Shown here piece by piece: positions 34,319 to 64,000 of a DNA stretch of 64,000 nt. The notes under the pieces were generated by a model that saw only the letters and a program-made list of their open reading frames with translations, ran no database searches and was not told the DNA's origin. The stretch lies in assembly GCF_040144835.1 (NCBI RefSeq), contig NZ_CP151632.1:1922001-1986000 (forward strand). The letters are read 5' to 3'. The DNA is from Microbacterium sp. LWS13-1.2. Its GTDB lineage: Bacteria; Actinomycetota; Actinomycetes; Actinomycetales; Microbacteriaceae. A program made the translations under genes and the position numbers. The first letter of the stretch is position 1, and every line of letters begins with the position of its first letter.

Positions 34319-35623
34319 TCAGTACTGGTTCGCGACGAAGAGCTCTTGCGCCGGGAACCTGGTGAGCACCTCGATGCCGTAGTCGGTGACAACGACCTCT
34401 TCCTCGATGCGCGCCGCCGAGATGCCATCGGACGCTGGGCAGTATGTCTCCATGGCGAACACCATCCCCGGTTTCAGCTCGACGGGATCCTTCATCGAGT
34501 TCAGCCGGGAAATGATCGGCCTCTCGTGCAGACCGAGGCCGAGACCGTGCGCGAACTGCAGACCGAAGGCGGCCAGTTCGTTCTCGAATCCGAAATCTTC
34601 GGCGGCCGGCAACACGCTGGCGACCTGGTCGCTTCCCACGCCCGGCTTGATCGCGTCCAGTGCGACGTCCATCCACTCCCTCGCCTGCTGGTATGCGTCC
34701 CGCTGGCTCGGGGTGGCCCAGCCGACGCCGAACGTGCGGTAGTAGCACGTGCGGTAGCCGTTGAACGAATGGATGATATCGAAGAAGGCCTGGTCGCCGG
34801 GGCGGATGATCCGGTCCGTGAAGTTGTGCGGGTGCGGGTTGCACCGCTCGCCCGAGATCGCATTGACGGCCTCGACCTGATCCGAGCCGTACTCATAGAG
34901 ACGCTTGTTCGCGAGCGCCACGATTTCGTTCTCCCGCACCCCAGGCTTCAGCGCCTCCGCAATGTCCTGGTAGACCCCGTCGACCATCGCCGCGGCCTGA
35001 TTGAGGAGCACGATCTCGTCCTGGCTCTTGATCACTCGGGCGTCGAGCATGGCCTGCTGGGCATCGACTACGGTGAGACCCTGGCGTTGCAGCTCGAACA
35101 GGAAGGGGGGCTCGACGATGTCGATGCCCAGTGGCGCGTCGGCGAGTCCGGCAGCCTTCAGCAGGGAGCGGATCTCCGAGACCGCATCTTTCATCAGCCC
35201 AGCACCTTCGGGTGCCACCGCGCCACGGAAGCCGAGGAATCCGGCTCGATAGTTCTCCTCGGGCACCCAGTCCGAGTACAGCTTGTGATGACGCACCGCC
35301 GAGCCGAAGTCCCACAGAATCGGATCGTGACCACGCATCAGGAGCGCGTAACGGATCATCTTGTCGCCGAGGGCACCCCCGATCCACGTCTGAGTGGTGT
35401 ACCGGATGTTGTAGAAGTCGAACAGCAGGAACGCGCCGCAGTCACTGCTCTCCAGTGCCGCCTTCGCGCGGGAGAGACGGTACTCGCGGAGCCGATCGAA
35501 GTCGACCCGGTGTTCGTAGTCGACGCCGTTCTGCCCCGGCGCTCCCAATGGACGCACGCCGGGCGGGCGCGTCACCGGTCGCTCGAAACGGCGGGCATCC
35601 CCGTGCGAGTGATGTGCGCCCAT
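34319..35623 (-). CDS. M24-fold (creatinase/ectoine-hydrolase-like) hydrolase, copy 1
   Basis: A 434-residue pita-bread-fold protein. An N-terminal creatinase-type domain (FDFYNIRYTTQ) leads to the catalytic domain. Of the five usual M24 metal ligands, Asp282, His359, Glu392 and Glu407 are present, but the second Asp is Cys293 (FNGYRTCYYRTFGVG). The same change occurs in the paralogue at 39848, so it is a family feature. Creatinase and ectoine hydrolase, which cut C-N bonds, have also lost that Asp; peptidase activity is therefore doubtful. The start overlaps the stop of the reductase gene (TGATG). Confidence 0.82.
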   Translation of the reverse strand: MGAHHSHGDARRFERPVTRPPGVRPLGAPGQNGVDYEHRVDFDRLREYRLSRAKAALESSDCGAFLLFDFYNIRYTTQTWIGGALGDKMIRYALLMRGHDPILWDFGSAVRHHKLYSDWVPEENYRAGFLGFRGAVAPEGAGLMKDAVSEIRSLLKAAGLADAPLGIDIVEPPFLFELQRQGLTVVDAQQAMLDARVIKSQDEIVLLNQAAAMVDGVYQDIAEALKPGVRENEIVALANKRLYEYGSDQVEAVNAISGERCNPHPHNFTDRIIRPGDQAFFDIIHSFNGYRTCYYRTFGVGWATPSQRDAYQQAREWMDVALDAIKPGVGSDQVASVLPAAEDFGFENELAAFGLQFAHGLGLGLHERPIISRLNSMKDPVELKPGMVFAMETYCPASDGISAARIEEEVVVTDYGIEVLTRFPAQELFVANQY

Positions 35624-36555
35624 CAGTCGGCTTCGAGTCCGTCGCTGACGGGCGCATCCTCGGAGGCAATGTCCAGGCCTGAACCCCGCGCCGCAGTGAG
35701 AAGCAGCGAGGCGAAGTCCTGGTCGATGTTTCCGTTGCCGACCTCCTGCGCAACGATGTTGCGCGTGACCGCCGCCACTGGCATGACGACGCCGAGGTCC
35801 TGGGCGGCGGCGAGTCCGAGGTCGAAGTCCTTCTGCAGAAGGACATTTGTGAAGGTGGGGGTGAAGTCCAGATTGACGAATGCGGGCGTCTTATACTGCG
35901 TGAACACCGATCCCATCACGGAGTCGTTGAGAAAAGTCAGGAATGCCTCTCGCGACACGCCAGCCTTCTCAGCGAGCACGGTGATCTCTGCGAGGGACTG
36001 GGTCACAACGCCGAGAAACACGTTGTGTGCGATCTTGACCGTACGGGCGACCTCACCTTCGCCGACGTAGGTCACGCCTCGCCCCCACGTCTCCAGCAGT
36101 GGCAGGGCCGCGTCGAAGACGTCGCGTGGTCCGGATGCCGCGACCGTGAGCTTGCCGATGGAGATCACCTTGGGGTTTCCCGAAACCGGGGTGGCGAGAA
36201 ACCCGACGCCCCGGGATTCCGCAATCTCTCGCACCCCGGCGCTCGCCTGTGACGACACCGTAGAGGCGTCCCCGAGGATCTTCGGAGCGCGACCCTCGTC
36301 GGTGAGAAGGCCGTCCTGACCGAGGATCACCTGCTCGAGGTCGTGGGAGGCAGAGACCATGCTGAACACGATGTCGCGACCGGCCAGCTCGACCGGCTTG
36401 TCTACGACCGATGCGCCGAACTCCACCAGAGACTCAGCCTTCTCGCGGGTCCGGTTGTATACCGCGACGTCGTACCCGGCGTCCAGGAGGCGCTTGGCCA
36501 ACTGATATCCCATGCGTCCCACACCGATCCACCCAACGGTCGGCTTCGCGGCCAT
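35623..36555 (-). CDS. NAD(P)-dependent beta-hydroxyacid dehydrogenase-like oxidoreductase, copy 1
   Basis: A 310-residue protein of the 3-hydroxyisobutyrate dehydrogenase/6-phosphogluconate dehydrogenase superfamily. The nucleotide motif is VGWIGVGRMGYQLAKRLLDA, the substrate motif DASTVSSQASAGVRE, and the catalytic Lys lies in ARTVKIAHNVFLG. It probably oxidises a hydroxy acid, or reduces an imine or aldehyde, formed in the island pathway. The start has GAGGAG. It is the first gene after operator A and is coupled to the M24 gene. Confidence 0.88.
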   Translation of the reverse strand: MAAKPTVGWIGVGRMGYQLAKRLLDAGYDVAVYNRTREKAESLVEFGASVVDKPVELAGRDIVFSMVSASHDLEQVILGQDGLLTDEGRAPKILGDASTVSSQASAGVREIAESRGVGFLATPVSGNPKVISIGKLTVAASGPRDVFDAALPLLETWGRGVTYVGEGEVARTVKIAHNVFLGVVTQSLAEITVLAEKAGVSREAFLTFLNDSVMGSVFTQYKTPAFVNLDFTPTFTNVLLQKDFDLGLAAAQDLGVVMPVAAVTRNIVAQEVGNGNIDQDFASLLLTAARGSGLDIASEDAPVSDGLEAD

Positions 36556-36569
36556 CTCTTCACTCCTCT

Positions 36570-36598
36570 GGCTAAACAATCGATTGCATTGATCGTAA
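36570..36598 (-). promoter_or_regulatory. Promoter with LacI operator A
   Basis: On the minus strand TTACGA (36598-36593) and TTAGCC (36575-36570) are 17 bases apart, and the palindrome CAATCGATTG (36577-36586) fills the spacer. The same palindrome occupies the promoter spacer at 46 and 52.7 kb. It starts 22 bases before the reductase gene. Confidence 0.65.
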
Positions 36599-36807: not shown

Positions 36808-37611
36808 TCAGGCCCTTCCGGCGCGCACGGCCCGGATGGCCATCTGGATCGCGATGAACGCGAGAAAAGCCGCGAAGAGCGCGTTGGCGACCTGCGGCTC
36901 GAGCAGAGTGGCGATCCAGACACCGAGAGCAGTGGTGGCGCACGACGCGACCCCGACCACCCCAGCCGCGAGGAGGTCGACATTCGTACGCCGAATGTTG
37001 CCCACGGTGCCCGACACGGCGGTCGGGATCATCATGAGAAGCGACGTGCCTCTCGCCGTCAGGTCGCTCATTCCGAATCCCAACATCAGCGCAGGGACCA
37101 CGATGATGCCGCCACCCACCCCGATCAGCCCAGCGACGGTGCCGGTCACAACCCCCAATGCGACCAGTCCTGCCCCGCTCAACCACGAGAGTTCGAACAA
37201 CGCATCGCGGGACGGGATGACCAGGAACAAGCTGACGATCACGCCGACGAGGAAGGCGACGAACGCCCACCTCAGCGCGATCTGGGAGATCCTCGGTAGC
37301 AGCCAAGTTCCGATCTGAGCACCCACGACGGCGCCGGCGGCCAGCACCAACCCTGCGATCCAGTTCACCGATCCATTCAGCGCGTAGGCCACTACGCCTA
37401 CGGGAGCCGTCAGCACGATGGCAGCCAGCGAAGTGCCAGCCGCGCGACGCTGATCGAAGCCGAGGAAGAACACCAGCATCGGGACGATCACCGTGCCGCC
37501 ACCCACTCCGAACATCCCGGAAAGCGTGCCGGCCAGCAGGCCGATGCCGATGCAGATAGGCACGACTCGACTGACGGACGGGGCACCGCCGGTCGTACTC
37601 TGCTCGTTCAT
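36808..37611 (-). CDS. TauE/SafE-family anion exporter
   Basis: A 267-residue membrane protein with about eight hydrophobic segments in two repeats. Each repeat carries the family glycine motif (GLLAGTLSGMFGVGGGTVIV and GTVAGLIGVGGGIIVVPALM). Members export sulfite, sulfoacetate or small organic anions. In the island it may remove a toxic acid or sulfite by-product. The ATG at 37611 is preferred, with GAGGA upstream. The gap of 180 bases to the divergent hydrolase gene contains AT-rich promoter-like sequence. Confidence 0.85.
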   Translation of the reverse strand: MNEQSTTGGAPSVSRVVPICIGIGLLAGTLSGMFGVGGGTVIVPMLVFFLGFDQRRAAGTSLAAIVLTAPVGVVAYALNGSVNWIAGLVLAAGAVVGAQIGTWLLPRISQIALRWAFVAFLVGVIVSLFLVIPSRDALFELSWLSGAGLVALGVVTGTVAGLIGVGGGIIVVPALMLGFGMSDLTARGTSLLMMIPTAVSGTVGNIRRTNVDLLAAGVVGVASCATTALGVWIATLLEPQVANALFAAFLAFIAIQMAIRAVRAGRA

Positions 37612-37785: not shown

Positions 37786-37791
37786 GGTTCA

Positions 37792-38433
37792 ATGCTGCTT
37801 ACCAAGTTCACTCACGCTACGGTGCGCTTCGAGAAAAACGACGCTACCGTCATCACGGACCCCGGCACCGTCAGTCCGGAATCTGCCGAGTTGCTCGCGA
37901 GCGCCCTCGGCGTCCTCGTGACGCACGAACATTTCGATCATTTCGACCCGGACGCGGTGCGGGAGGCGCTCGCGGTGAACCCGCAGCTCACGATCTACGG
38001 CCCGCCTGGTCTGGCGGCACTCGTGGAGGGGCATGACCATCGTTTCGTGACGGTAGCGCCGGGCGATTCCTTCAGCGTCGGTCCCTTCGCCGTTCAGGCG
38101 TTCGGGGGGACGCACGCCGTCATCCACCCAGACATGCCGACCGTTTCGAACATCTCGTTCCTCGTGGATGGCCGCGTGTTCCATCCGGGCGACTCGTACG
38201 CGCTTCCCGGTGTACCCGTCGAAACGCTGCTGATGCCGACGAGCGGTCCATGGACATCAATCCGGCAGGCTGTCGATTTCATACGTGGAGTCGCCCCCAC
38301 TCGCGCCATCCAGATCCACGAGCTCGAACTCAGCGAGGTGGGCCGAGAGTATGCGCTGTACTTCCTCGGCGTGGACGGTGTGGGAGGAGTACCGATCTCG
38401 GACCTGCCATATGGAGAGTCCGTCGAAGTCTGA
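37792..38433 (+). CDS. Metallo-beta-lactamase-fold hydrolase (UlaG/UPF0173-like)
   Basis: A 213-residue zinc hydrolase of the short MBL type. The metal motif is THEHFDHFD (His45, His47, Asp49, His50), with a later His in GGTHAVIH and Asp in FHPGDS. The C-terminal half (AVDFIRGVAPTRAIQIHELE) matches UlaG/UPF0173-like proteins acting on lactones or phosphoesters. No ribosome site is present, and the transcript is probably leaderless. In context it may open a lactone or lactam. Confidence 0.85.
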   Translation: MLLTKFTHATVRFEKNDATVITDPGTVSPESAELLASALGVLVTHEHFDHFDPDAVREALAVNPQLTIYGPPGLAALVEGHDHRFVTVAPGDSFSVGPFAVQAFGGTHAVIHPDMPTVSNISFLVDGRVFHPGDSYALPGVPVETLLMPTSGPWTSIRQAVDFIRGVAPTRAIQIHELELSEVGREYALYFLGVDGVGGVPISDLPYGESVEV

Positions 38434-38484: not shown

Positions 38485-38529
38485 TTGACGCGCTGTCGGC
38501 CACCCCTCTAACCTGTCGCAAACGATTGC
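38485..38529 (+). promoter_or_regulatory. Promoter with LacI operator B
   Basis: TTGACG (38485-38490) and TAACCT (38509-38514) are 18 bases apart. GCAAACGATTGC (38518-38529) follows directly, where it would block initiation. It differs from the perfect GCAATCGATTGC by one base. It controls the esterase gene. Confidence 0.6.
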
Positions 38530-38688: not shown

Positions 38689-39735
38689 ATGATCAACCCG
38701 GCATCACGTCCTCGACGCGGAACAATTCTTCGCGCCCACCGATCAGCCAAGATAGGAGCGAGCGCAGCCGCATTGGCTCTCGCCGCGAGCCTCGCGTCGT
38801 GCGCGGGCTCTCCGACTGCGCAGCCGCCCACGGCGATCGAGGAGGAATGCTCCATCCCGCTGGAGCCCGGTGTCCACGAGGTGGCCTTGACATCCGGCGG
38901 CGGATCGCGGCCATTCCTGCTCTACGTGCCGACGTCCTATGACGGTCACACACCCGTCCCCGTCGTGATCAATGGCCATGGCAGTACCAGTGACGGCAGC
39001 GAGCAACTCGCATACAGCGCCATGATGCCGATCGCGGACTCACATGGCTTCGCCATCGCGGCGCCCACTGGCGCCGTCGAGTTCACCCGCGGATTCATCT
39101 GGAACTTCCCGGGCTTCCCGTTGTACGGCGGGACGAGCCTCGCTCCGGAGGGCACGCCCGACGACGATCTCATGATTCGCGACTTGATCGCCGCGTTGCC
39201 GCTGGCGATCTGCGCCGACGAGGCCCGTGTGTACGCCACCGGGTTCTCCGCGGGTGGCCGAATGGCCTCCCGGCTCGCCTGCGAGGACGCCGACCTGATT
39301 GCGGCCATCGGCGCGGTCGGTGGGCTGCGGGCAGGCCCCGAGCCTGACGCGACAGACTGCCACCCCTCCCGACCCGTGCCGGTGATCGCGTTCCACGGTG
39401 ATGCCGACCCCGTCAACAAGTTCGAGGGAGGTACCGGCACCTCGACGAACTTCGGCTACGGCGTTGAGGATGCCGTAGCACAGTGGGCCCTCATCAACGA
39501 ATGCGATTCGACCCCGACGCGCACGGCCGTCACCGCGACCGTCGATCTCAGCGCGTACTCAGATTGCTCGGACGGTAGCGAGGTGGCGTTCTACACCGTG
39601 GAAGGTGGCGGACACACCTGGCCCGGAAGCGGCTTCCTGCTCCCCGCGGACCAGTTCGGCGAGACCGACCAGTCGATCAACGCGAGCGAGTTGATGTGGG
39701 AGTTCTTCTCTCGGCATCGACTCCCCGCGAGCTGA
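38689..39735 (+). CDS. Secreted esterase lipoprotein of the PHB-depolymerase/LpqC type
   Basis: A 348-residue alpha/beta hydrolase. The signal peptide has a basic start and a lipobox ending LASCAG, so it is lipid-anchored outside the cell. The catalytic residues are Ser in YATGFSAGGRMAS, Asp in IAFHGDADPVNKF and His in EGGGHTWPG, as in feruloyl-esterase/LpqC family members. GAGGAAAAG precedes the ATG. As the only exported hydrolase of the island, it may release the pathway substrate from an ester outside the cell. It ends in a strong bidirectional terminator. Confidence 0.88.
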   Translation: MINPASRPRRGTILRAHRSAKIGASAAALALAASLASCAGSPTAQPPTAIEEECSIPLEPGVHEVALTSGGGSRPFLLYVPTSYDGHTPVPVVINGHGSTSDGSEQLAYSAMMPIADSHGFAIAAPTGAVEFTRGFIWNFPGFPLYGGTSLAPEGTPDDDLMIRDLIAALPLAICADEARVYATGFSAGGRMASRLACEDADLIAAIGAVGGLRAGPEPDATDCHPSRPVPVIAFHGDADPVNKFEGGTGTSTNFGYGVEDAVAQWALINECDSTPTRTAVTATVDLSAYSDCSDGSEVAFYTVEGGGHTWPGSGFLLPADQFGETDQSINASELMWEFFSRHRLPAS

Positions 39736-39847: not shown

Positions 39848-41230
39848 TCAGGCCTTCGCCTGACCCCAGGGCGTGTTGAGGTGCGATTGGGAATCGCGCT
39901 CGTTGTTGAGTGGCCCACCGACGGCGATATACCGCGGGCCAGCGATCAGGAGCTCCTCGGCGGGGAACTTGGTGATGACCTCACAGCCGTCCGCTGTGAC
40001 GACCACTTCCTCCTCGATGCGCGCCGCTCCCCAACCGTCCGCAGCGGGCCAGTAGGTCTCGAGTGCGAAGACCATCCCTTCCTTCAACTCCTCGGGGTGG
40101 TCGAAGGAGGTCAGTCGCGAGAAGATCGGCTTCTCCCAGATCGACAAACCGACGCCGTGGCCGTACTGGAGGGCGAAGGCAGCTTCTTCATTTTCGAAGC
40201 CGAACTCCTGCGCGGTCGGCCAGACAGCGCAGATATCAGCCGTGGTCGCGCCAGGACGCACCAGCGCGATCGCCCGGTCCATGTACTCGCGTGCGCGCGT
40301 GTAGGCGTCCTTCTGAGCACGTGACGCCGACCCGACGGCGAACGTCCGGTAATAGCAGGTTCGGTAGCCGTTCCAGCTGTGCAAGATGTCGAAGAAGGCC
40401 GGGTCGCCGGGGCGGATGAGCCGATCGCTGAAAACGTGGGGATGAGGCGAGCAGCGCTCGCCAGAGATCGCGTTGACGCCCTCGACATACTCGGATCCGA
40501 GATCGTAGAGCGTCTTGGCCACAAGCCCGACAGCCTCGTTCTCCCGGACGCCCGGGCGCAAGAACCGATAGAGCTCCTCATATGCCGAATCCACCATGGA
40601 CGCGGCCTGCGTCAGAAGGCGGATCTCGTCGTGCGTCTTTATCCGGCGTGCCTCCAAGAACACCTGCTGACCGTCCACGACCTGGATCCCCGCCCTCTGC
40701 AGAGCGAACAGGACGGGAAGTTCGATGACGTCGACGCCCAAGGGCTGGTTTGCAACACCGAACTTCTCCAGCTCCCGCTTGATCTTGCGTGCGACTTCGT
40801 CCGCGATTCCGGCATCGACCGGGAACGCGCCGCGCAGCGTGGAGATTCCCGCACGAGCGCCCGACTCAAGCCGAGGCCGCTTCGTACCCTCGTGGGGAGC
40901 GTGCGGATCGGCGTCCATCTCTGATGAAGTAACGTCCAGCCAAGGGTTGTACAGCGCGTGGTGTTTAGCAGCGGACCCGAAGTCCCAGGAGATGGGATCG
41001 GTGTTGCGAGTTAACAAGCTGAAGCGGATCAGCTTGTCCATCGCCCAGGTACCGATGTGGGTAGACGTCATGTAGCGGATGTTCGAGAAGTCGAAGGCCA
41101 AGACGGCTCCGAGCTCCGAAGCCTGCAGCTGCTCCTTGAGGCGACCAAGTCGCTCGTCTCGGAGTCGATCGAAGTCGACCCGCGCTTCCCAGTCGACGCC
41201 GTTCGTCCCCGTGGTTCCGGTGCTCTTCAT
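39848..41230 (-). CDS. M24-fold (creatinase/ectoine-hydrolase-like) hydrolase, copy 2
   Basis: A 460-residue paralogue of the protein at 34319-35623 (both have DFDRLR, NIRY, AISGERC-PHPH, NGYRTCYYRTF and HG-GL motifs). Asp281, His358, Glu391 and Glu406 are kept, and the second metal Asp is again Cys (Cys292). It has a short insertion near residues 100-125 and a C-terminal tail of about 30 residues, not present in copy 1. It probably hydrolyses a related C-N bond. AGGGAG lies before the ATG. A GTGTA-AC-TACAC palindrome is at 41276-41287 upstream. Confidence 0.82.
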   Translation of the reverse strand: MKSTGTTGTNGVDWEARVDFDRLRDERLGRLKEQLQASELGAVLAFDFSNIRYMTSTHIGTWAMDKLIRFSLLTRNTDPISWDFGSAAKHHALYNPWLDVTSSEMDADPHAPHEGTKRPRLESGARAGISTLRGAFPVDAGIADEVARKIKRELEKFGVANQPLGVDVIELPVLFALQRAGIQVVDGQQVFLEARRIKTHDEIRLLTQAASMVDSAYEELYRFLRPGVRENEAVGLVAKTLYDLGSEYVEGVNAISGERCSPHPHVFSDRLIRPGDPAFFDILHSWNGYRTCYYRTFAVGSASRAQKDAYTRAREYMDRAIALVRPGATTADICAVWPTAQEFGFENEEAAFALQYGHGVGLSIWEKPIFSRLTSFDHPEELKEGMVFALETYWPAADGWGAARIEEEVVVTADGCEVITKFPAEELLIAGPRYIAVGGPLNNERDSQSHLNTPWGQAKA

Positions 41231-41359: not shown

Positions 41360-42235
41360 TCACGATGATCTCGTCCGACCGAGTTCGGCGATCACCGACC
41401 AGTCAAGACCGGCGAGGGCAGGATCAGCTAGCGCGGTCTCGAACTGCGTGCGCAGTACCGGCGCGGTCGGCAAGCTCACCCGCCGCTCCGCGGCGAGCTG
41501 CTCCGCGAGCGTCAAGTCCTTCAGCCCGAGGGCAACGGTGAAGCCAGGCGGGTCGTACCGCCTGTCGGCGATGATGCGGCCATACACCTGATGGATCGGG
41601 CCGCCGAAGAAAGTGGAGGTGAATAGATCCACGAAGTCCGATCCGTCGACCCCCTCCGCCTCCACAAGCGCGATGCCTTCACCCATCGACTCGAGTGCGT
41701 GAAGCAGCATGAAGTTCATTGCGACCTTCACGGCGTTGGCCTGTCGCGGTGACTCCCCGAGAACCCAACGCCGAACACTGGCGGCCGCGAGCAGCGGGTC
41801 GACTTCTTCGACGGCCTCGCGCGGCCCCGCGACGAGGATGTTGAGTCCACCCTTCGCTGCCACCTCGGGCCGTCCCAGGACGGGAGCAGCGACGTACTTC
41901 ACATCCGCGTCAGAGAATCGGCGCGTGAGGAGATCCGCCATTTGCGCGCTCACGGAGGCCATGTTCACGTGCACCCTGCGTCGACCCGCGACCCCGATGT
42001 TCTCACGGCTCAAGACGGCGTCAGCAGCTGAGTCATCGGCCAGCATCGAAAAGGAGATCGGCGCCGCAAGGGCTTCCGCCGCAGACTCGGCTCGAGTCAT
42101 TCCTGCCGCGAGCAGCTCACTCTCCGCAGCAGTGCGGCTCCGGTTCCACACGGTGACCGAAGACCCCGCCTCTGCCATCCGGATCGAAATGGCCGCTCCC
42201 ATGCGACCCAGCCCCAAGAAACCGATCTGATTCAT
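41360..42235 (-). CDS. NAD(P)-dependent beta-hydroxyacid dehydrogenase-like oxidoreductase, copy 2
   Basis: A 291-residue homologue of the reductase at 35623. The nucleotide motif is IGFLGLGRMGAAISIRMAEA, followed by a substrate loop (NMASVSAQMADLL) and catalytic Lys in RQANAVKVAMNFML. Divergence from copy 1 is large, so the substrates probably differ. It lies downstream of the RidA and flavin-reductase genes on the same strand and upstream of M24 copy 2, repeating the reductase-M24 order of the first pair. Confidence 0.88.
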   Translation of the reverse strand: MNQIGFLGLGRMGAAISIRMAEAGSSVTVWNRSRTAAESELLAAGMTRAESAAEALAAPISFSMLADDSAADAVLSRENIGVAGRRRVHVNMASVSAQMADLLTRRFSDADVKYVAAPVLGRPEVAAKGGLNILVAGPREAVEEVDPLLAAASVRRWVLGESPRQANAVKVAMNFMLLHALESMGEGIALVEAEGVDGSDFVDLFTSTFFGGPIHQVYGRIIADRRYDPPGFTVALGLKDLTLAEQLAAERRVSLPTAPVLRTQFETALADPALAGLDWSVIAELGRTRSS

Positions 42236-42258: not shown

Positions 42259-42645
42259 TTACACCGCAGCAATCGCGTCGATCTCGATCGTCGCGCCGTT
42301 GAAGAGCGACTCAACGCCGATAACCGTGCTCGCGGATGGTTCCGGCGTGGCGACGATCGCGTTGCGCGTTTCGCGCCATGTTGCGAGCTTCTCCTGGTCG
42401 AGCCCGACGATGTAGACGTTGACGCGCACGAGGTTCTGGTACGTCGCCCCTGCCGAGCGGAGTGCGCGCGCCAGCTCTGCGTAGGTGAGTTCGATGGCAC
42501 GCACGAAATCGTTGGGAACGGAGCCATCCTCCTCGAAGCCGACCTGCCCCGAGACGAACACGAGGTTTCTCGCCGCTACCCGCGCGCTGTCAGAGATCCC
42601 GGGAATCACCGGCGCCGGGACTCTGGTAATACGTTGCGAAGACAA
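42259..42645 (-). CDS. RidA-family deaminase, copy 1
   Basis: A 128-residue YjgF/YER057c/UK114 protein. RidA members hydrolyse reactive enamine/imine intermediates to ketones and ammonia. Family features are VAARNLVFVSGQVGFEEDG, YAELARALRSAGATYQNLVR and STVIGVESLFNGATIEIDAI; the usual catalytic Arg position after RVNVYIV is not obvious. The TTG at 42645 is preferred because AGGAGA lies six bases before it; the longer frame from ATG 42699 starts with unrelated sequence. It fits hydrolysis of an enamine formed by ring opening. Confidence 0.85.
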   Translation of the reverse strand: MSSQRITRVPAPVIPGISDSARVAARNLVFVSGQVGFEEDGSVPNDFVRAIELTYAELARALRSAGATYQNLVRVNVYIVGLDQEKLATWRETRNAIVATPEPSASTVIGVESLFNGATIEIDAIAAV

Positions 42646-52801: not shown

Positions 52802-52837
52802 CAATCGATTGCGGTCTGGGAGCAGCAGATCTAGCAT
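52802..52837 (+). promoter_or_regulatory. Promoter with LacI operator E
   Basis: CAATCGATTG (52802-52811) overlaps a TTGCGG -35 box (52809-52814). TAGCAT (52832-52837) follows after 17 bases. It drives the amidohydrolase gene. Operators D and E are 111 bases apart centre to centre, so a repression loop is conceivable. Confidence 0.7.
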
Positions 52838-52886
52838 GCTGCTAAACCCCGTCGGCGGCGTGGGTGCCGGCAAAGGGAGGACCATC

Positions 52887-56866: not shown

Positions 56867-57766
56867 TCAGAGCAGGAGCGTGCCATCGTTCTTGGGCGCG
56901 CGCGACGCATCGATCGCACGAAGGTTGACCTCGGTGACCGAGTTGCCGCTCTCCGCAACCCACGAGGTGTAGCGCCGCTTGATCTCCTGGTCGTGTCCAG
57001 GGATGATGCGGCTCGTCTCACCCTTGAGCTCGTCCCTGAAGGTCTTGTAGAGGTTGATCAGATTGAACGAATTTCCCTGGCCGTATCCCGGAACCCACAT
57101 GGTCTCGACGTTCTCGTAGAGGTAGACGATGTCCCCCGCGATCACGTATGGGCCGTTCTGCGTCTCGACCTTGAACCACTGGGAGCCGAACGTGTGTGAG
57201 TCGCGGGCGAGCCGTGCGGTCACGCCGGGAAGAAGCTCCTGGTCGCCCTTGACGAACCTGATCCTGCCGTCCGCGATGCCTTTCGCTGCGCGGGTGAGAT
57301 CCGTCGGGTCGAAGGAGGAGAAGATCCATGCGCGTTCCGCTTCGGAGGGGAGCTGGTTGGCGGTCTCGACCGCCTGAGACCATCCGACGTACTCGTCGAG
57401 CTGCACGTAGAGCTGGGCGTTGGGAAACGCCTCGAAGTTGCCCATGTGGTCGAAGTGCATGTGTGACACAAGGATCACCTCGATGTCCTCCGGGCGCAGA
57501 TCAACTCGCGCGAGGACCTCCTCGGGACTCTCCCACTTGGTGAACGGAAAGCGATCCAGCCAGTAGTCGTTGCGGAAGCCGCAGTCCACCAGTGCGACGT
57601 GCTGCTTACCGCCCACCTCGCCGCCGATGATGAGGGTGTACAGCATCGAGGCACGTTGGGCCCCCTCGTTGCTGTGCATGATGACGCCCCCCATGAAGTC
57701 GCCGGGCACATCTCCTTGACAGAACTCGAGTGAATAGATCGAGTAGTCGGTCTTACGTTCGCTCAT
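56867..57766 (-). CDS. Metallo-beta-lactamase-fold hydrolase (AHL-lactonase-like)
   Basis: A 299-residue zinc hydrolase. The metal site is SHMHFDHMGN (His102, His104, Asp106, His107), with further ligands in ARDSHTFGSQW and VIAGDIVYLYENV and a C-terminal IIPGHDQEIKRRY. This matches the N-acyl-homoserine-lactonase-like MBL branch, whose members open lactones of many kinds. In a catabolic cluster, hydrolysis of a lactone or lactam intermediate is more likely than quorum quenching. A dyad lies in its promoter (57819-57837). Confidence 0.88.
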   Translation of the reverse strand: MSERKTDYSIYSLEFCQGDVPGDFMGGVIMHSNEGAQRASMLYTLIIGGEVGGKQHVALVDCGFRNDYWLDRFPFTKWESPEEVLARVDLRPEDIEVILVSHMHFDHMGNFEAFPNAQLYVQLDEYVGWSQAVETANQLPSEAERAWIFSSFDPTDLTRAAKGIADGRIRFVKGDQELLPGVTARLARDSHTFGSQWFKVETQNGPYVIAGDIVYLYENVETMWVPGYGQGNSFNLINLYKTFRDELKGETSRIIPGHDQEIKRRYTSWVAESGNSVTEVNLRAIDASRAPKNDGTLLL

Positions 57767-58043: not shown

Positions 58044-58688
58044 TTACAGGGTCGCTGCAACGAATGGCCCAGACGTGGCCCGCTGCACGTGTGCTGCCAT
58101 GAGCGCCTCAGCCAGCGGGCCGTCTCCAGCCGCTATAGCGGCACGGATCTCGTGATGATCCTGCCAGAGCCGCCTGGGGCCGGGCGCGATCGCAGCCGTG
58201 TTGATCCACTCGGAGCGACTGCTGAGCACGTGCACGAACGCGCCCAGAATGGCGTTGCCGCACGCCGAAGCCACCGCATCGTGGAACCGCGAGTTCAATC
58301 TGTGCTGCTCACTAGTCTCCCCGTGGTCCAGCGCTCTATCCCCTTCGGCGAGGATCGCATCGATCAGCGCAAGATCTGCGGGCGTATGGTGAAGCGCCGC
58401 CTCCCGGGCGGCCGGAGGCTCGAGGATGTTCCGGGCAGCCCGAACTTCGCGCACCACCTCTTCGGTGAGTAGCTGCACCCGAGGCGAGCCGTACAGCTTG
58501 AGGTCGACCATCCCCTCGGCGGCGAGAACGCGGAGAGCCTCCCGAACGGGAACCCTCGAGGTGCCGAATCTCATGGCAAGCGATGGTTCGGTCACCCGCG
58601 ATCCCGGCGCCAATTCACCGGAGATGATCAGGTCGCGGATCGCATCGACCAGTGCCCTGCCCCTCAGACCCGGATTACCCAAAAGCAT
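58044..58688 (-). CDS. GntR-family regulator, FCD subfamily
   Basis: A 214-residue regulator. The winged helix-turn-helix (LVDAIRDLIISGELAPGSRV, EPSLAMRFGTSRVPVREALR) is followed by an FCD ligand domain (NSRFHDAVASACGN, HHEIRAAIAAGDGPLAEALM). FCD proteins typically bind carboxylic acids, often with a metal held by Asp and His residues. GGGGAAGGG precedes the ATG. It lies just upstream of the MftD-like gene and ABC transporter region and probably controls them or the lactonase gene. Confidence 0.9.
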   Translation of the reverse strand: MLLGNPGLRGRALVDAIRDLIISGELAPGSRVTEPSLAMRFGTSRVPVREALRVLAAEGMVDLKLYGSPRVQLLTEEVVREVRAARNILEPPAAREAALHHTPADLALIDAILAEGDRALDHGETSEQHRLNSRFHDAVASACGNAILGAFVHVLSSRSEWINTAAIAPGPRRLWQDHHEIRAAIAAGDGPLAEALMAAHVQRATSGPFVAATL

Positions 58689-58739: not shown

Positions 58740-59927
58740 CTACTCTATGAGGAAGCCGTCGGGAATCACGAGGTCCTCGGGCGTGAGGTCATGGATCGAA
58801 GACTTTCCGAGCCCGATCAGGGTGCGTTCGATGGTGATACGGAACGTTTCCAGCACCTCGTAGACGCCCCGCTCCCCGTCAGTGGCCAGACCGTAGAACC
58901 ACGGCCGACCGATCATCACCGACTGTGCGCCCAACGCGAGGGCCTTGACGACATCCGTCCCGCGGCGCACACCGCTGTCGAATGTCACCTCGGCCTGGTC
59001 GCCGACCGCCTTCACGACGGCGGGAAGGAATCGCAGAGGCGACGGCGTGGTGTCGAGGTTGTTGCCGCCGTGGTTGGAGACGCCGATCGCTGTGGCGCCC
59101 ACGTCAAGGGCACGACGCGCGTCGTCGGGGGTCACCAACCCCTTGATCATGAAGGGGCCGCCCCACAAGTCGCTGAGCCACGCCATGTCATCCCACGTAG
59201 GGATGTGCGTACCCACCCATTCGTTCAGCGCTCCGACCAGGGTCGGCACGACGCCGTCCTTCTTGCTCATGTTGGGCGCGTAGAGGCCGGGCACACTCCC
59301 CCGCCGGAGGTAACGCAGGGTCCATCGGGGGTGGACCACCGCCGTCGGCGCGTACTTCATCATGGTCCCCAGGCCCAGTCCGTCTGGGTAGACGGGCGAA
59401 CCCCAATCGCGTGGTTGGTGTGCAACTCTGCCGCCGGAGAGGTCGAGCGTGAAGATGAGTCCCTTCACACCCGCCCGACGGAACCGCTCGACACGGTCCG
59501 CGATCGTGTCGCGGTCACCTGACAGGTATACATGCGCGAACGTGTTGGGATTGGCGCTGGCTACGTCTTCCACGGGCATCGAGGCGAAGTTGGCGAGACC
59601 GAGCGCGGTGCCGGCGCGCCGCGACGCCCGCGCGACACCCACTTCGCCATCAGGGTGCATCGCCTGCGCCGCCGCCGGAGCGATGACCACCGGCAGATCG
59701 ATGTTCTGGCCCATGAACGTGGTCTTGAGATCGGGGTGGAGCGGGATCTCCACACCCACGCGGGGGATCATCCCCACCTGCTCGAACGCCCGCAGATTAG
59801 CCCGGATCGTCGACCCGCCATCGCTTCCCGCCTCCAAGGCCGTGAAGACGTCCTTCGGGAGAAGCTTCTTCGCACGCGCGCGCGCCTCCGCAACGGTCTC
59901 GATCGGCTTGTGAGAGAAAAAACTCAT
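58740..59927 (-). CDS. FMN-dependent alpha-hydroxy-acid oxidoreductase, MftD-like
   Basis: A 395-residue TIM-barrel flavoprotein of the lactate/glycolate oxidase family. Several segments are closest to the mycofactocin enzyme MftD: ETVAEARARAKKLLPKDVFT, GEVGVARASRRAGTALGLAN, RDWGSPVYPDGL and SNHGGNNLDTTPSPLRFLPA. The catalytic His lies in SNHGG; the usual Arg of HGGRQ is Asn, as in MftD. GAGGAG precedes the ATG. No mycofactocin genes are in the window. It may oxidise a hydroxy acid or amine in the pathway. Confidence 0.87.
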   Translation of the reverse strand: MSFFSHKPIETVAEARARAKKLLPKDVFTALEAGSDGGSTIRANLRAFEQVGMIPRVGVEIPLHPDLKTTFMGQNIDLPVVIAPAAAQAMHPDGEVGVARASRRAGTALGLANFASMPVEDVASANPNTFAHVYLSGDRDTIADRVERFRRAGVKGLIFTLDLSGGRVAHQPRDWGSPVYPDGLGLGTMMKYAPTAVVHPRWTLRYLRRGSVPGLYAPNMSKKDGVVPTLVGALNEWVGTHIPTWDDMAWLSDLWGGPFMIKGLVTPDDARRALDVGATAIGVSNHGGNNLDTTPSPLRFLPAVVKAVGDQAEVTFDSGVRRGTDVVKALALGAQSVMIGRPWFYGLATDGERGVYEVLETFRITIERTLIGLGKSSIHDLTPEDLVIPDGFLIE

Positions 59928-59977: not shown

Positions 59978-61084
59978 CTAGGTCGTTGCCGCACGCGGTG
60001 TGGCCACCACGCCGGTGAGGAAGGGATCGCGTGGTCGGAACGGCCATCGGGCCTCTCTGCCGCCAGTGATGCCGGACGGACGGAGGATGATGATCAAAAC
60101 CATCAGCGCCGCAACGACGACGAGACGGCTGCCCGAGGGAAGCGAAACGATCACCCCGCCGATCTGCACACCGTTCTCCAGCACACCCAGAACATGGTTC
60201 AACGCCGAGATGAGAAGCGTGCCGACGACCGCTCCCCAGAGCGACAGCATCCCGCCGACGATGAGCATGGCAATCGTGGTGAACGTGAAGTCCAAGCCGA
60301 ATTGGGAAGCCTGAATCACGCGGTTCGTCTGAGCCCACATCGCACCGCCAACACCCGCGAGCGCGCCCGAGACCGTGAACGCGATGATGCGGTGGCGAGT
60401 GATGCTGATTCCTGAGGCCGGGGCGGCCTGGGAGTTCTCTCGCGATGCGCGGAGCAGCCGCGCGCTACGACTCTGCCCATAACTCCAAGCGAGCACGATG
60501 ACGATGAGCGCTATCAACAATGTGCTCTGCAGATCGAAGCTTCGCGGAATTCCCGTCATCGATTGGCCTGATTTCGGCCCGATGGCGCTCCAATAGGTGA
60601 GGACCTGTACGACCAGCATGAGCAGCGCGAAGGTGGCGATACCGGCCTCCAGCCCGTGGAGGCGCATCAGCGCAAAGCCGCTGATGAGCGCCGTCACGCC
60701 GCCGACGGCGGCCGCAATGATCAGGGCGATAACGGGGTCCGCGGACGCCTCTGCCAGGAAGGGGGCTAGCTCGGGCATGACCGAGGACTTCACCAGGGGG
60801 CTGATCGTCAGCAGGGACATCGTCCAGGCACCCACCGCAACGAACGCGAGATGTCCGAAGGAAAGAACTCCGCTGTTACCAATGAACGACCACATCGCCA
60901 CGACGACGATCAAGGTGGCCAGAGCGTAGCTGAGATCGATTGCAGCGGCGGGCGACACGTTGCTCGCCAACAAGGCGAACAGCCAGACGACCACCATGGG
61001 CACGATGAGGGTCCACATGGACAGGAGAGGACCGGGCACCGTCCACCCGAAGCGGGAAGGGCGGGCACTTCGAGAGGGGGTCAT
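59978..61084 (-). CDS. livM: Branched-chain-amino-acid-type ABC permease (LivM-like)
   Basis: A 368-residue membrane protein with about ten hydrophobic segments. The LivM signatures are GNSGVLSFGHLAFVAVGAWT near the N-terminus and ASQFGLDFTFTTIAMLIVGG plus LSLWGAVVGTLLISALNHVL near the C-terminus. It would form the import channel with the LivH-like protein. The ATG at 61084 overlaps the livH stop by four bases. The transported solute is probably the pathway substrate, a polar amide or amino acid-like compound. Confidence 0.92.
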   Translation of the reverse strand: MTPSRSARPSRFGWTVPGPLLSMWTLIVPMVVVWLFALLASNVSPAAAIDLSYALATLIVVVAMWSFIGNSGVLSFGHLAFVAVGAWTMSLLTISPLVKSSVMPELAPFLAEASADPVIALIIAAAVGGVTALISGFALMRLHGLEAGIATFALLMLVVQVLTYWSAIGPKSGQSMTGIPRSFDLQSTLLIALIVIVLAWSYGQSRSARLLRASRENSQAAPASGISITRHRIIAFTVSGALAGVGGAMWAQTNRVIQASQFGLDFTFTTIAMLIVGGMLSLWGAVVGTLLISALNHVLGVLENGVQIGGVIVSLPSGSRLVVVAALMVLIIILRPSGITGGREARWPFRPRDPFLTGVVATPRAATT

Positions 61085-61965
61085 GTGCGTTCCTTGGCGG
61101 TACGTCCACCGAAGATTCCGTTGGGAACGATCAGGAGGACGACGATGACGAGTAGATAGACGAATGCAACGCGGAAGTCGTTGAATCCGGAGGGCAGCCA
61201 GGACGTGAACAGCGAAAGGGCGAACCCGACGGCGAACCCGCCGACCAGCGCCCCACCGATGCGGTTCAACCCGCCGATCACGGCACCTATAAGACCGAAC
61301 ACCGTCGCCTGGACACCGAAGGTCGGATCGACGGCGCCCGACTGCGCGGTCAGGATGAAGGCCACGGCTGCGGCGAGTATGCCGCTCATTCCCAGAGTCA
61401 CTGCGATGACAGCTCCCGATCGGATGCCGAGAATACGCGCCACTCGGAAGTCGGCGGAGGCGGCCTGCACCTGCAGGCCCATCCGTGACCGGGTGAGGAA
61501 TAGGTGTACGGCGAGGAGAAGGATGGCAGCCAGCACGATCGCGACGATGGCGAGCAGGCTGAGTCGCAGCCCTCCGACGTTCACCGATCTTGTCAACGCG
61601 GGGGCAACGGAGCCGCTCAGCACCCTCGCGCCGAAGATTCCCTCGTAGAAACGCTGCAGCAGGATACTCACTCCGAAGCTGGCGATCAGCAGGGCGGCGG
61701 GCGATTGCGATCTCATCCATCGGAAGACAGCGAGGTCCATCAACAGCGACAGGGCGACGGCAACGACGACCGAAGCCGCAAGCGCGAGCGGCCACGACAC
61801 CGGCCAGAGGAGGAGGAGCGCGTAGGCCGCCCCGGTGATGATCTCACCGTTGGCGAAGTTCGCGAGCCGCAGCACGCCGAAGACGAGTCCGATGCCCAGC
61901 GCGGCGAGGGCGTACACCGCCCCTGCTGAGGTGGCGTCGATGAGAGATTGAATGACGGGAATCAC
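61081..61965 (-). CDS. livH: Branched-chain-amino-acid-type ABC permease (LivH-like)
   Basis: A 294-residue membrane permease. The N-terminal ATSAGAVYALAALGIGLVFG with VLRLANFANGEIITGAAYAL is a textbook LivH opening, and AQSGAVDPTFGVQATVFGLI followed by GAVIGGLNRIGGALVGGFAV is the conserved core. The GTG start at 61965 overlaps the livF stop (GTGA). It is part of the coupled series livG-livF-livH-livM. Confidence 0.93.
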   Translation of the reverse strand: MIPVIQSLIDATSAGAVYALAALGIGLVFGVLRLANFANGEIITGAAYALLLLWPVSWPLALAASVVVAVALSLLMDLAVFRWMRSQSPAALLIASFGVSILLQRFYEGIFGARVLSGSVAPALTRSVNVGGLRLSLLAIVAIVLAAILLLAVHLFLTRSRMGLQVQAASADFRVARILGIRSGAVIAVTLGMSGILAAAVAFILTAQSGAVDPTFGVQATVFGLIGAVIGGLNRIGGALVGGFAVGFALSLFTSWLPSGFNDFRVAFVYLLVIVVLLIVPNGIFGGRTAKERT

Positions 61966-62690
61966 GATCCGAGGTACGCCTTCATGAGAAGCGCGGGGTC
62001 ATCCGCGTCGGTCGGGGAGAGTGTCATCGAGATGCGCCCTTCGCTTAGCACGTATGTTCTGGTCGCCGCGGCCACTGTCTGCTGCGCACGCTGCTCGACG
62101 ATGAGTACAGCTGTTCCACGAGCACAGATGCTCTCGATGGCACCGAAGACCGTATCCACTGCCGTCGGCGACAGGCCGAGCGAGGGCTCATCCAGCGCGA
62201 GAAGGGTCGGCGCCGCCAGCAGCGCACGTCCGATCGCCAGCTGCTGCTGCTGCCCTCCAGAGAGAAGCCCTGCAGGGCGATTCGAGAACTCGTTCAGAAT
62301 CGGGAAGAGCTCATACACCCATTCGAGATCGTCCGAAAGACCGCTTCGGTCGCGGCGGGCAGTCGAGCCGAGCCGGAGATTGTCCCGAACTGTGAGGCGA
62401 CCGAAAATATGGTGCCCTTCGGTCACCAGGGCCAGTCCCGTCCGAGCCACGCGCTCCGGAACCATCCGGCGCAGATCGATACCCCGCAAGCTGGTCTCCG
62501 CAGACTCGGATCGTACGGCGTTGACGATTCCGAGGAGGGTCGAAGATTTTCCGGCGCCATTGGGCCCGATGATGCCCACCAGCTCGCCAGCATCCACATG
62601 GAAGGTCACATCGCGCACGGCGGGAACGCCGCGGTATGCGACTTTCAGACCCGCTATCGTGAGCACTCGTTCGGTGTCATGCGTCGGCAT
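61962..62690 (-). CDS. livF: Branched-chain-amino-acid-type ABC ATPase (LivF-like)
   Basis: A 242-residue ABC ATPase. Walker A is GPNGAGKSS, the Q-loop region is VTEGHHIFGRLTVRDNLRLG (the LivF-typical PEGRxIFPxLTVxENL variant), the signature LLSGGQQQQLAIGRALLA, and Walker B LLALDEPSLGLSP. The start at 62690 lies inside the 3' end of livG (14-base overlap), which makes translational coupling likely. It pairs with LivG as an ATPase heterodimer. Confidence 0.93.
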   Translation of the reverse strand: MPTHDTERVLTIAGLKVAYRGVPAVRDVTFHVDAGELVGIIGPNGAGKSSTLLGIVNAVRSESAETSLRGIDLRRMVPERVARTGLALVTEGHHIFGRLTVRDNLRLGSTARRDRSGLSDDLEWVYELFPILNEFSNRPAGLLSGGQQQQLAIGRALLAAPTLLALDEPSLGLSPTAVDTVFGAIESICARGTAVLIVEQRAQQTVAAATRTYVLSEGRISMTLSPTDADDPALLMKAYLGS

Positions 62691-63474
62691 CGTGGCCTCC
62701 GTCTGCGATCTGCCGGGCTGCATTGCCCAGGTAGGAGGTGGCCAAGCGCTCGTCATGGCGGATCTCTTCGGGTGTTCCGTCGAGGACGTTCCGACCCGCG
62801 CCGAGGACGAAGATGTGGTCGCAACTACCGAAGACGAGCGGCATATTGTGATCGATCAGAAGCACTCCGATGCCACGCTCCGCGAGATCCCTCATCGTCG
62901 CGCGGAAGTGCTGTGCTTCGCCCTCGTTGAGACCCGCGGCAGGTTCGTCGAAGAGCACCCAGCTGGGTCGCGTCGCGAGCGCCCGCGCCACGCCGAGGCG
63001 ACGCTCGACGCCGTGCGGCAGATGATCCGCGCTGTGAAGTGCCCACTCTTCCAGCTGCAACTCCGACAGGACGTCCAAGGAGAGTGCACGAGCCTTTGAA
63101 CGGGACAGTCCGCAGGCCAGTGCAGTGACTTCGACATTCTCCATGACTGTGAGGAGAGGATAGAGATGCCCGTGCTGGAAGGTTCGGGCGATACCGCGGT
63201 GCGTCCTGCGCTGTGCCGACTCGTGTGGAAGCATTTGGCCGTCGATCTCGATGGCTCCCTCATCGGGCCGATCGAACCCGCTGAGGATGTTCACGAGCGT
63301 CGACTTGCCCGCGCCATTGGCGCCGATCAGGCCGGTCACCCGACCACGCGGGATCTCGATGTTCACATCTTGCAGCGCCTTCACACCGCGGTACGACCGC
63401 GTAATCCCGCGGCCCTGGAGCCGGACGCTGTCGCGCCCGGCTCCAGGGACACTGCGGACTTCAGTCATTGACAT
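62677..63474 (-). CDS. livG: Branched-chain-amino-acid-type ABC ATPase (LivG-like)
   Basis: A 265-residue ABC ATPase. Walker A is GANGAGKSTLVNILSG, the Q-loop is RGIARTFQHGHLYPLLTVME (LivG-typical), and Walker B WVLFDEPAAGLNEGE. The ABC signature is atypical: where LSYGQQRRLEIARAL is expected it reads LPHGVERRLGVARAL, so Ser-Gly-Gly is replaced by Pro-His-Gly. The C-terminal VLGAGRNVLDGTPEEIRHD follows the family. It overlaps the 3' end of the binding-protein gene. The ATG at 63468 is an alternative start. Confidence 0.9.
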   Translation of the reverse strand: MSMTEVRSVPGAGRDSVRLQGRGITRSYRGVKALQDVNIEIPRGRVTGLIGANGAGKSTLVNILSGFDRPDEGAIEIDGQMLPHESAQRRTHRGIARTFQHGHLYPLLTVMENVEVTALACGLSRSKARALSLDVLSELQLEEWALHSADHLPHGVERRLGVARALATRPSWVLFDEPAAGLNEGEAQHFRATMRDLAERGIGVLLIDHNMPLVFGSCDHIFVLGAGRNVLDGTPEEIRHDERLATSYLGNAARQIADGGHDADA

Positions 63475-64000
63475 TGATCTTCTCGGGAGCACGTCGCTCG
63501 ACGAACTTGAGCGTCCCGTCCTCGACGACGCGGACGCTCTGCGGCCGCTCGAGGGCGATGTGGTATTCCGGCGTGAACGTCGTCGGACCGACGAGGAGCT
63601 CCTCGTTGTCGAAGGTCACGAGCGCATCGGCCAGCTCCGCTCCGTCCCAGCTGCCCGCGATCTCGTAGCCGTTGACGATGGATTCGATCGCCGACGGCCC
63701 CATCACGAAGGTCCCCATGGTGGGTGCGCCGTACTCGGCGGTGTAACGGTCGAGGAACTCGTTCACGGCGGGGTCCGGGTCGTCGCCTGTCAGCGAGACG
63801 GGCCCAACGGTGTAATAGTCGCTCAGCCCGGGAATGGCATCGAGCCAGAACGTTCCGTCCATGCCGAAGCCGGAGATGACGGGAGCCGTGATTCCGCCGT
63901 CCCGCAAGTCCTTGGCCACCTGGGCACCGCCGGGCAGGTAGCCGCAGTTGAAGATCACATCGGGTGCGGTTCCGCCGGAGATCTTGGAAACGATCTCCGG
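63461..64000 (-). CDS. Branched-chain-amino-acid-type ABC substrate-binding protein (partial)
   Basis: The last 179 codons of a LivJ/K-type receptor, cut by the right edge of the window. Visible family features are SGGTAPDVIFNCGYLPGGAQ, KDLRDGGITAPVISGFGMDG, DYYTVGPVSLTGDDPDPAVN and MGPSAIESIVNGYEIAGSWD, ending in VERRAPEKINVND. It is encoded before the ATPases and permeases in a normal operon order. The binding pocket lies mostly outside the window. Confidence 0.88.
   Translation of the reverse strand, partial: PEIVSKISGGTAPDVIFNCGYLPGGAQVAKDLRDGGITAPVISGFGMDGTFWLDAIPGLSDYYTVGPVSLTGDDPDPAVNEFLDRYTAEYGAPTMGTFVMGPSAIESIVNGYEIAGSWDGAELADALVTFDNEELLVGPTTFTPEYHIALERPQSVRVVEDGTLKFVERRAPEKINVND

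Follow-up and report, generated by a model that had tools for sequence, protein, structure and literature searches.

What would a Microbacterium strain break down with an island of flavin monooxygenases, flavin reductases, RidA-family and M24-family proteins, an amidase and an amidohydrolase? The question is raised by a 64,000-nucleotide stretch of the chromosome of Microbacterium sp. LWS13-1.2 (hereafter the window; bases 1922001-1986000 of the 4.33-Mb single-contig genome, contig NZ_CP151632.1), in which an original prediction had seen a catabolic island for a nitrogen-containing ring attacked by two-component monooxygenases. We judge that proposal to be right, and every gene class that it named was recovered with Pfam and NCBIfam profiles. 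Comparison with known catabolic clusters, which it had suggested as a check, uncovered a match that it had missed, to the published bxd gene set. We therefore consider it highly probable that the locus is a bxd-type catabolic island, enlarged and mosaic in structure, which serves to degrade benzoxazolinones, that is, cyclic carbamates resembling 6-methoxybenzoxazolin-2-one (MBOA) or benzoxazolin-2-one (BOA), the substrate of this strain being what we infer from sequence comparison.

The bxd cluster of maize-root Microbacterium comprises 15 genes, bxdA to bxdO, which encode 13 enzymes and two regulators (Thoenen et al. 2024, PMC11297187). The available text of that paper names A as a lactonase, D as an aldehyde dehydrogenase (ALDH), G as a VOC protein and N as an NAD(P) oxidoreductase, and reports four cluster architectures. 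It also reports that MBOA raised transcripts of the whole cluster in Microbacterium LMB2, that BxdA converts MBOA into 2-amino-7-methoxyphenoxazin-3-one (AMPO) in vitro, and that Sphingobium without its bxdA genes grew poorly on MBOA (PMC11297187). A later paper, as far as its available text goes, retains BxdA as the first step (PMC12483121), and our literature searches on the cluster itself, on cleavage of the benzoxazolinone ring, on a Microbacterium glucosidase for DIMBOA-Glc and on structures of benzoxazolinone hydrolases brought up, among the papers listed, none that adds to the pathway.

It was a hydrolase of the metallo-beta-lactamase (MBL) fold, near relatives of the flavin monooxygenase (FMO) that we call FMO1, that suggested BxdA. 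Across 366 genomes of the genus and 398 sampled from the family, both sets including our own genome, homologues of this lactonase are found in 11 (E value of 1e-40 or better) and four (1e-50), respectively. The close clade consists of our sequence and eight others from seven genomes, with pairwise identities of 76-100% and identities to our lactonase of 78-91%, a range that agrees with the 76.3-100% similarity published for AMPO-forming microbacteria (available text of PMC11297187). Our protein is 89-91% identical to the lactonases of genome G698 and of locus a of genome G696, and ~78-79% identical to those of G693 and G695; the lactonases of G489, G751 and G679 are more distant (64-68%). The G693 and G695 proteins head bxd-ordered clusters, and it is with these (78%), not with LMB2 BxdA itself, that ours was compared, a cluster member being expected to reach ~60% similarity to BxdA. 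The closest solved homologue, which aligns over 292 residues with 432 bits, is PDB 8x78, a 306-aa protein that bears the label 'Glyoxylase, beta-lactamase superfamily II'; the literature search found no paper on this entry.

The 15 consecutive called genes of G695 encode, in order, a lactonase, RidA, FMO, ALDH, E2, E1, VOC and GntR, and then an FMO, flavin reductase, RidA, M24, LacI, beta-hydroxyacid dehydrogenase (beta-HAD) and F420-type oxidoreductase; G693 shows the same order over the part covered, from A to the start of I. This arrangement fits the published cluster at A, D, G and N and in its count of 13 enzymes plus two regulators, the other letters being assigned in this analysis on the G695 order. 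All 15 positions have a blastp homologue in our island, 12 of them at 58% identity or more to G695 (A 79, B 68, D 72, E 64, F 86, G 78, H 71, I 66, J 72, K 77, L 77 and O 58%); C (37%), M (37%) and N (48%) are weak, family-level matches only. The homologues are scattered over 34-104 kb in window-equivalent coordinates (the same numbering continued beyond 64000), without the contiguous A-to-O order of G695. The features of the window to which we gave a bxd letter are as follows.

34319..35575, minus strand: M24 family protein 1 (M24_1; position L, 77%), PF00557, with the second metal Asp replaced by Cys.
41360..42235, minus strand: beta-hydroxyacid dehydrogenase 2 (beta-HAD_2; position N, 48%), PF03446.
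42259..42609, minus strand: RidA-family protein 1 (RidA_1; position K, 77%), PF01042.
42759..43322, minus strand: flavin reductase 1 (position J, 72%), PF01613.
43365..44567, minus strand: FMO1, group D flavin monooxygenase (position I, 66%), PF08028; second copy at window-equivalent 96739-97941.
56867..57766, minus strand: BxdA-like MBL lactonase (position A), PF00753, with an HMHFDH motif.

A bxd-like cluster is also present in G679 (L066:3707-18767), where the lactonase, 64% identical to ours, lies between FMO1 and GntR rather than first; it has four sites of the pattern CAAWCGWTTG, described below.

FMO1 (E value of 1e-120 or better) occurs in 15 of the 366 genus genomes, namely in all 11 with the lactonase and in four of the 355 without it, co-occurrences that are not independent events because the genomes are related. 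Among the matches listed, FMO1 orthologues are found in LWH10-1.2 (67%), LMD1 (72%) and LWH3-1.2 (78%); an MBOA phenotype has been published for LWH10 and LMD1, and LWH3 is unnamed in the available text (PMC11297187). The joint occurrence with the lactonase and the phenotype of these strains both speak against a different account, in which the lactonase has another specificity and the island degrades some other aminophenol-yielding compound (anilides, sulfonamide breakdown products or other cyclic carbamates). That account draws on the absence of the lactonase from four of the 15 genomes with FMO1 and on related FMO clusters in two bacteria that degrade sulfonamides, Microbacterium sp. BR1 and 'Ca. 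Leucobacter sulfamidivorax' GP, SadB being the 4-aminophenol monooxygenase of such degraders (available text of PMC6868719). We regard it as unlikely. FMO1 is 46-47% identical to three FMOs (from BR1, GP and a Propionibacterium) that have both SadB pocket residues, a Val and a Trp at the positions of XiaF S121 and A236, respectively (PMC6868719), and itself has Ile121 and Phe235 at these positions, which makes it a neighbour of SadB and not SadB. BR1 (L021) and GP (L023) each encode three FMOs in tandem, of which one has both residues; close to them lie homologues of E1, E2, ALDH and VOC of the island (BR1) or of its RidA and flavin reductase (GP).

In a wider search, 1020 of 7999 candidate proteins scored matched FMO1 at an E value of 1e-60 or better; among the 120 of these that were listed, relatives at 70-81% come from Microbacterium, Herbiconiux, Arthrobacter, Nocardioides, Streptomyces and others. 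Half of the 24 FMO1 loci found in species genomes have nearby at least one of flavin reductase, RidA, M24, an MBL protein resembling AHL lactonases, and an HTH-cupin regulator. The BR1 locus has E1, E2, ALDH, VOC and GntR near its FMO instead, and most of the distant loci (FMO below 48%) have the FMO alone in common.

Several points weigh against a benzoxazolinone island. Its assignment is based on gene order, identity range and neighbours, not on the LMB2 BxdA sequence; its gene order is unlike that of the clusters seen, and positions C and M lack a clear orthologue. The RidA homologues lack the usual arginine, at what we take to be the catalytic position: RidA_1 is without the Arg that 3k0t has in an alignment, RidA_2, 3 and 4 are without it by eye, and none is thus a canonical RidA by this residue. 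Similarly, at what is presumably the second metal-binding Asp, all three M24 proteins have Cys, as do all 13 motif hits from 15 loci of relatives (two loci gave no hit, and one hit lacked the last Glu motif). Both families have therefore probably been repurposed. Among the genes scanned, none was recognised as encoding an intradiol or a two-domain extradiol dioxygenase. Finally, no CAAWCGWTTG site precedes our lactonase, unlike those of G695, G693, G679 and G696 locus b; ours is of the second-module type described below, and G696 locus a and G698 are likewise without sites.

As for its extent, the island is a segment of low GC at third codon positions (GC3) that starts at ~33-34 kb of the window and ends at ~105 kb window-equivalent, and the 41 kb beyond the window end had escaped the original prediction. 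Mean GC3 (genes longer than 150 aa) is 0.797 (SD 0.039) for 58 island genes versus 0.903 (SD 0.038) for 39 genes on the left side, and GC per 2-kb step falls from 0.67-0.73 up to 34 kb to 0.62-0.68 after it. Beyond the window, the island encodes a gamma-glutamyltransferase, an oligopeptide importer, a GH3 protein, a transketolase-like pair, a sugar importer, an amidohydrolase, a third M24, a third FMO type (FMO3), a second FMO1, two RidA proteins, ALDH, E2, E1, VOC and GntR. Gene calls came partly from a home-made caller, and the profile scan of E1 was done via its relatives in BR1 and G695. The chromosomal location of the clusters differs between relatives. At the island edge, window 31398-32315 encodes a PEP-utiliser mobile-domain protein with a 52% identical paralogue at window-equivalent 121804-124185. 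The remaining features of the window are listed here; they include an alpha-hydroxyacid dehydrogenase, a short-chain dehydrogenase/reductase (SDR) and a dihydrolipoyl dehydrogenase (LPD) that were missing from the earlier inventory.

32903..34303, minus strand: LPD (E3), island copy, TIGR01350 at 547.6 bits (cut-off 408.8), GC3 0.95.
35623..36555, minus strand: beta-hydroxyacid dehydrogenase 1 (beta-HAD_1), PF03446/PF14833, 87% in G696 locus b.
36577..36586, no strand: operator candidate CAATCGATTG, 22 bp before beta-HAD_1.
36808..37611, minus strand: TauE/SafE permease, PF01925.
37792..38433, plus strand: MBL-fold hydrolase, Lactamase_B_3, 75-77% in G696 and G698 clusters.
38519..38528, no strand: operator candidate CAAACGATTG, before the esterase.
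38773..39735, plus strand: PHB-depolymerase-like esterase, NF050058 at 154.6 (cut-off 150).
39848..41230, minus strand: M24 family protein 2 (M24_2), PF00557, 81-96% where present in relatives.
44729..46189, minus strand: amidase, PF01425, 74% in G696 locus b.
46239..46248, no strand: operator candidate CAATCGATTG, between the amidase and the divergent PEPCK-reductase gene.
46414..48843, plus strand: GTP-dependent phosphoenolpyruvate carboxykinase (PEPCK) that continues in frame into an HpaC-type flavin reductase (809 aa as one polypeptide), with a possible further start codon inside the gene at 48316.
48963..49388, minus strand: RidA-family protein 2 (RidA_2), PF01042.
49475..50500, minus strand: LacI-family regulator, presumed operator reader, PF00356/PF13377, 79% in G696 locus b and 35-37% in G679 and G695.
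50601..51224, minus strand: NADPH-FMN reductase, flavodoxin fold, PF03358.
51431..52636, minus strand: FMO2, group D flavin monooxygenase, PF08028.
52691..52700, no strand: operator candidate CAATCGATTG, before FMO2.
52802..52811, no strand: operator candidate CAATCGATTG, before the amidohydrolase.
52836..54278, plus strand: amidohydrolase, PF01979, PRK08204-like below cut-off (365.9 bits, cut-off 391).
54332..54895, minus strand: flavin reductase 3, PF01613.
55173..55859, plus strand: HTH-cupin regulator 1, PF13560/PF07883.
55959..56666, minus strand: SDR oxidoreductase, PF00106, 75-82% next to the lactonase in G694, G696 and G698.
58044..58688, minus strand: GntR/FCD regulator, from a profile scan.
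58740..59927, minus strand: FMN-dependent alpha-hydroxyacid dehydrogenase, MftD-like, TIGR03966 at 510.7 (cut-off 470.85).
59978..64000, minus strand: Liv-type ABC importer (two permeases, two ATPases and a binding protein that extends to window-equivalent 64666), 72-94% in G694, G696 and G698, near the lactonase.

Does this wealth of parts reflect duplication, as had been supposed? The paralogous pairs are there, and they are mostly old and diverged: FMO1, FMO2 and FMO3 are mutually 31-35% identical (FMO2 is 31-35% identical to 15 other FMOs compared), the M24 proteins 55-58%, the flavin reductases 47-54% and the beta-HADs 29%. The exception is FMO1, whose copies at 43336-44595 and window-equivalent 96710-97969, 53 kb away, match at 99.76% over 1260 bp, a repeat made up of the gene and 28-29 bp on each side, with no end repeat evident. 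In a blastn self-match of the 163-kb region (matches longer than 150 bp), this repeat alone exceeded 75%, which rules out a single large tandem duplication. A second FMO1-like gene is likewise found in G694 and G699 (67% identity to ours), G593 (69%, partial) and G696 (78%).

In G696, these genes are divided between two loci that both include a BxdA-like lactonase and are separated by ~34 kb, 14 kb of it outside the data fetched. Locus b runs through amidohydrolase, FMO2, FMN reductase, LacI, RidA_2, PEPCK, flavin reductase, amidase, beta-HAD_1, M24_1, LPD, FMO1, flavin reductase, RidA, SDR and lactonase (80%). Locus a consists of sugar importer genes, M24_3, FMO3, RidA_3/4, the Liv importer, alpha-hydroxyacid dehydrogenase, GntR, lactonase (89%), SDR, HTH-cupin, MBL, M24_2, beta-HAD_2, flavin reductase and FMO1. 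In our window, a block of the locus a type (MBL 37792 to FMO1 44567) separates the amidase from beta-HAD_1, two genes that adjoin each other in G696. Compared with G696, the island consists of two interleaved bxd-type modules, probably for two related benzoxazinoids; of the two options raised in the original prediction, two related substrates fits better than sequential attack on one molecule, given the two loci of G696 and the operator on only one of the gene sets here. Could the two halves instead be unrelated pathways that are neighbours by chance? FMO2, the FMN reductase, the amidohydrolase and the amidase have no counterpart in the 15-gene G695 order, and the isolation of FMO2 among FMOs and the confinement of the operator to one gene set point the same way. 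Against this, the FMO2/amidohydrolase/LacI set of G696 is contiguous with M24_1, LPD, FMO1, flavin reductase, RidA, SDR and a BxdA-like lactonase, and one operator site precedes that very lactonase. A chance neighbourhood is accordingly very improbable. Within single loci, conservation is uneven, M24_2 being better conserved than FMO1 (87 versus 79% in L011, 90 versus 70% in L018).

Coming back to the two interleaved modules, a regulatory signal sets one of them apart. A 14-mer common to two promoters led to the palindrome CAATCGATTG, of which there are four exact sites in the 163-kb region versus 0.04 expected from base composition. Widened by the variants of relatives to CAAWCGWTTG, the pattern has five sites in the whole genome, all five in the island and all intergenic, versus one site for a backward control pattern. 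It has 27 sites in 400 kb made up of 20 stretches of relatives, and 23 control half-sites of similar composition gave at most six in these stretches and three in our region. Palindromes centred on CG are typical of LacI regulators. LacI is present in three of the 20 stretches, all with sites (six, five and four); four further stretches have sites and no LacI in the part fetched, and 13 have neither. All five sites of G695 lie before bxd operons: before M24, before the FMO at I, between VOC and E1, before the FMO at C, and between RidA (B) and the lactonase (A). Such sites in LacI-carrying relatives indicate that LacI probably runs bxd operons. By analogy, the LacI protein, as the putative operator reader, probably runs the first module here, including the LPD and PEPCK copies. 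For the second module, no shared gapped palindrome emerged, since each of the 12 half-site pairs listed was confined to a single intergenic stretch.

The LPD and PEPCK copies just mentioned are a further feature that the original prediction had missed; its three HpaC-type flavin reductases were all found, with the correction that one is in frame with a complete GTP-PEPCK. The island LPD shows no mismatch in 1398 bp to the chromosomal gene at C1:841519, the identity starting at the ATG and extending ~263 bp past the stop, and the PEPCK part (46450-48219) matches the chromosomal copy at 3917287 over 1777 bp with 99.887% identity. GC3 is core-like in both (0.95 and 0.93), while the reductase part has 0.80. 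Our self-comparison of the genome covered the LPD, PEPCK-reductase and FMO1 proteins, window 34319-54000 and window-equivalent 83001-103000, so that further near-identical copies are possible elsewhere. At the same position, the LPD of G696 and G698 is 97.85% and 99.93% identical to the chromosomal gene of its own genome, whereas the three island copies are mutually 92.4-94.5% identical. Likewise, the PEPCK of G696 and G694 is 97.3% and 91.5% identical to the own chromosomal gene versus 89.4% and 81.8% to our island PEPCK, and that of G696 is 92.9% identical to the chromosomal gene of G698. In the trees, a grouping of the island copies as one clade is rejected, with p values of the approximately unbiased test of 2.6e-46 for LPD (eight rows, seven different; forks among G696 rows open, and two identical G000 rows left free on both sides of the test) and 2.2e-56 for PEPCK (12 rows). 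That the island copy tracks the original of its own genome points to concerted evolution. Two LPD copies are present in three of five genomes searched, and a second PEPCK lies beside the reductase in three of 12 (G699 has a partial second match elsewhere).

PEPCK and reductase share one frame here and in G694, and are adjacent with a stop between them in G696, so that a read-through confined to this strain does not fully explain the pair. Among the matches listed, the PEPCK part is closest to Microbacterium proteins (up to 94-95%), and no relative with a length close to 800 aa is among the 120 listed of 7999, of which one, with 1256 aa, is a multiple PEPCK. With AAAGG ~9 nt ahead of an in-frame ATG, the reductase may also be produced on its own. 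A 41-bp stretch at window 48868-48908, which lies between the convergent genes for PEPCK-reductase and RidA_2, is 95% identical to its own reverse complement, perhaps a bidirectional terminator.

We lean towards the following interpretation: a horizontally spread island keeps copies of E3 and GTP-PEPCK under its own LacI-type operator, and these are repeatedly overwritten by host versions, which yields host-adapted core enzymes, with PEPCK in one frame with a flavin reductase in two lineages. In this genome, unlike G696 and G698, the 3' flank of LPD was copied too, which argues against conversion alone and would suit independent recent insertions in each genome, as would the absence of PEPCK from beside the reductase in G698. 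Set against such insertions, the 1.4 kb before the island LPD are 83-84% identical across three genomes, and three genomes also have PEPCK leading into one and the same flavin reductase, which means that the genomes have these positions in common. Independent insertion is for this reason unlikely, and repeated overwriting remains our preferred reading.

How might these parts work together on a benzoxazolinone? The Liv importer, and the oligopeptide-type and sugar-type importers beyond the window, may take up the compound or its glucoside, and the GH3 beta-glucosidase beyond the window could release the aglycone. The BxdA-like lactonase would then open the carbamate ring to give an aminophenol, as has been published for BxdA acting on MBOA. 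All steps after the aminophenol are what we infer: FMO1 with a flavin reductase would hydroxylate it, RidA-family, M24, beta-HAD, VOC and ALDH proteins might deaminate it and open the ring (a guess), and a dedicated 2-oxoacid dehydrogenase complex (E1 and E2 beyond the window, the LPD copy as E3) could yield an acyl-CoA, with the PEPCK copy supporting gluconeogenesis. One module would be under LacI via CAAWCGWTTG and the other under other regulators. The ALDH has succinate-semialdehyde dehydrogenase as its closest match, and E1/E2 have pyruvate dehydrogenase; none of these scores reaches the cut-off. A mycofactocin role of the MftD-like protein is ruled out, since no radical-SAM MftC scores over cut-off in the genome (best 32.7 bits versus 265). 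The GH3 gene (window-equivalent 75204-77615) adjoins the oligopeptide-type importer (69840-75092), the pair being 78-85% conserved near bxd-type genes in G694 and a candidate for benzoxazinoid-glucoside uptake.

How does the island compare with known systems? The original interpretation, partly supported overall, had set it apart from both Rut and Pyr. With Rut it shares RidA-type and flavin-reductase-type proteins, but its flavin reductases score 42-52 bits against a RutF cut-off of 254.75 and RidA_2 scores 30.4 against a RutC cut-off of 169.1, so Rut is rejected for want of a RutC or RutF equivalog above cut-off; the Rut luciferase-like family is absent from the Pfam hits of the genes scanned. 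Pyr is set apart as well. From SadB it is separated by the pocket residues of FMO1 given above. The LPD and PEPCK copies recall tuf-type pairs, in which paralogues within a genome are likewise closer than orthologues between genomes, concerted evolution having been described for tuf and certain other genes (PMC6053082); here, one member lies in an accessory catabolic island, and neither 'dihydrolipo' nor 'phosphoenolpyruvate carboxykinase' occurs in the main text of that paper. They offer a clean natural case for asking how an accessory pathway is kept in tune with the central metabolism of its host. Of the bxd cluster (PMC11297187), as ordered in G695, the island has homologues of all 15 gene types, A to O. 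It differs in size (~70 kb versus 15 genes), in its two interleaved modules and scattered order, and in having three FMO types, three M24 proteins, a Liv importer, an amidase, an amidohydrolase and the LPD and PEPCK copies. The island is thus very probably a variant of the bxd kind, whose new parts are the operator, a handle to find and test the regulon, and the housekeeping copies. This comparison names a likely substrate class for an opaque gene set, offers candidates for the steps after the aminophenol, and lets bxd grow from 15 genes into a modular family.

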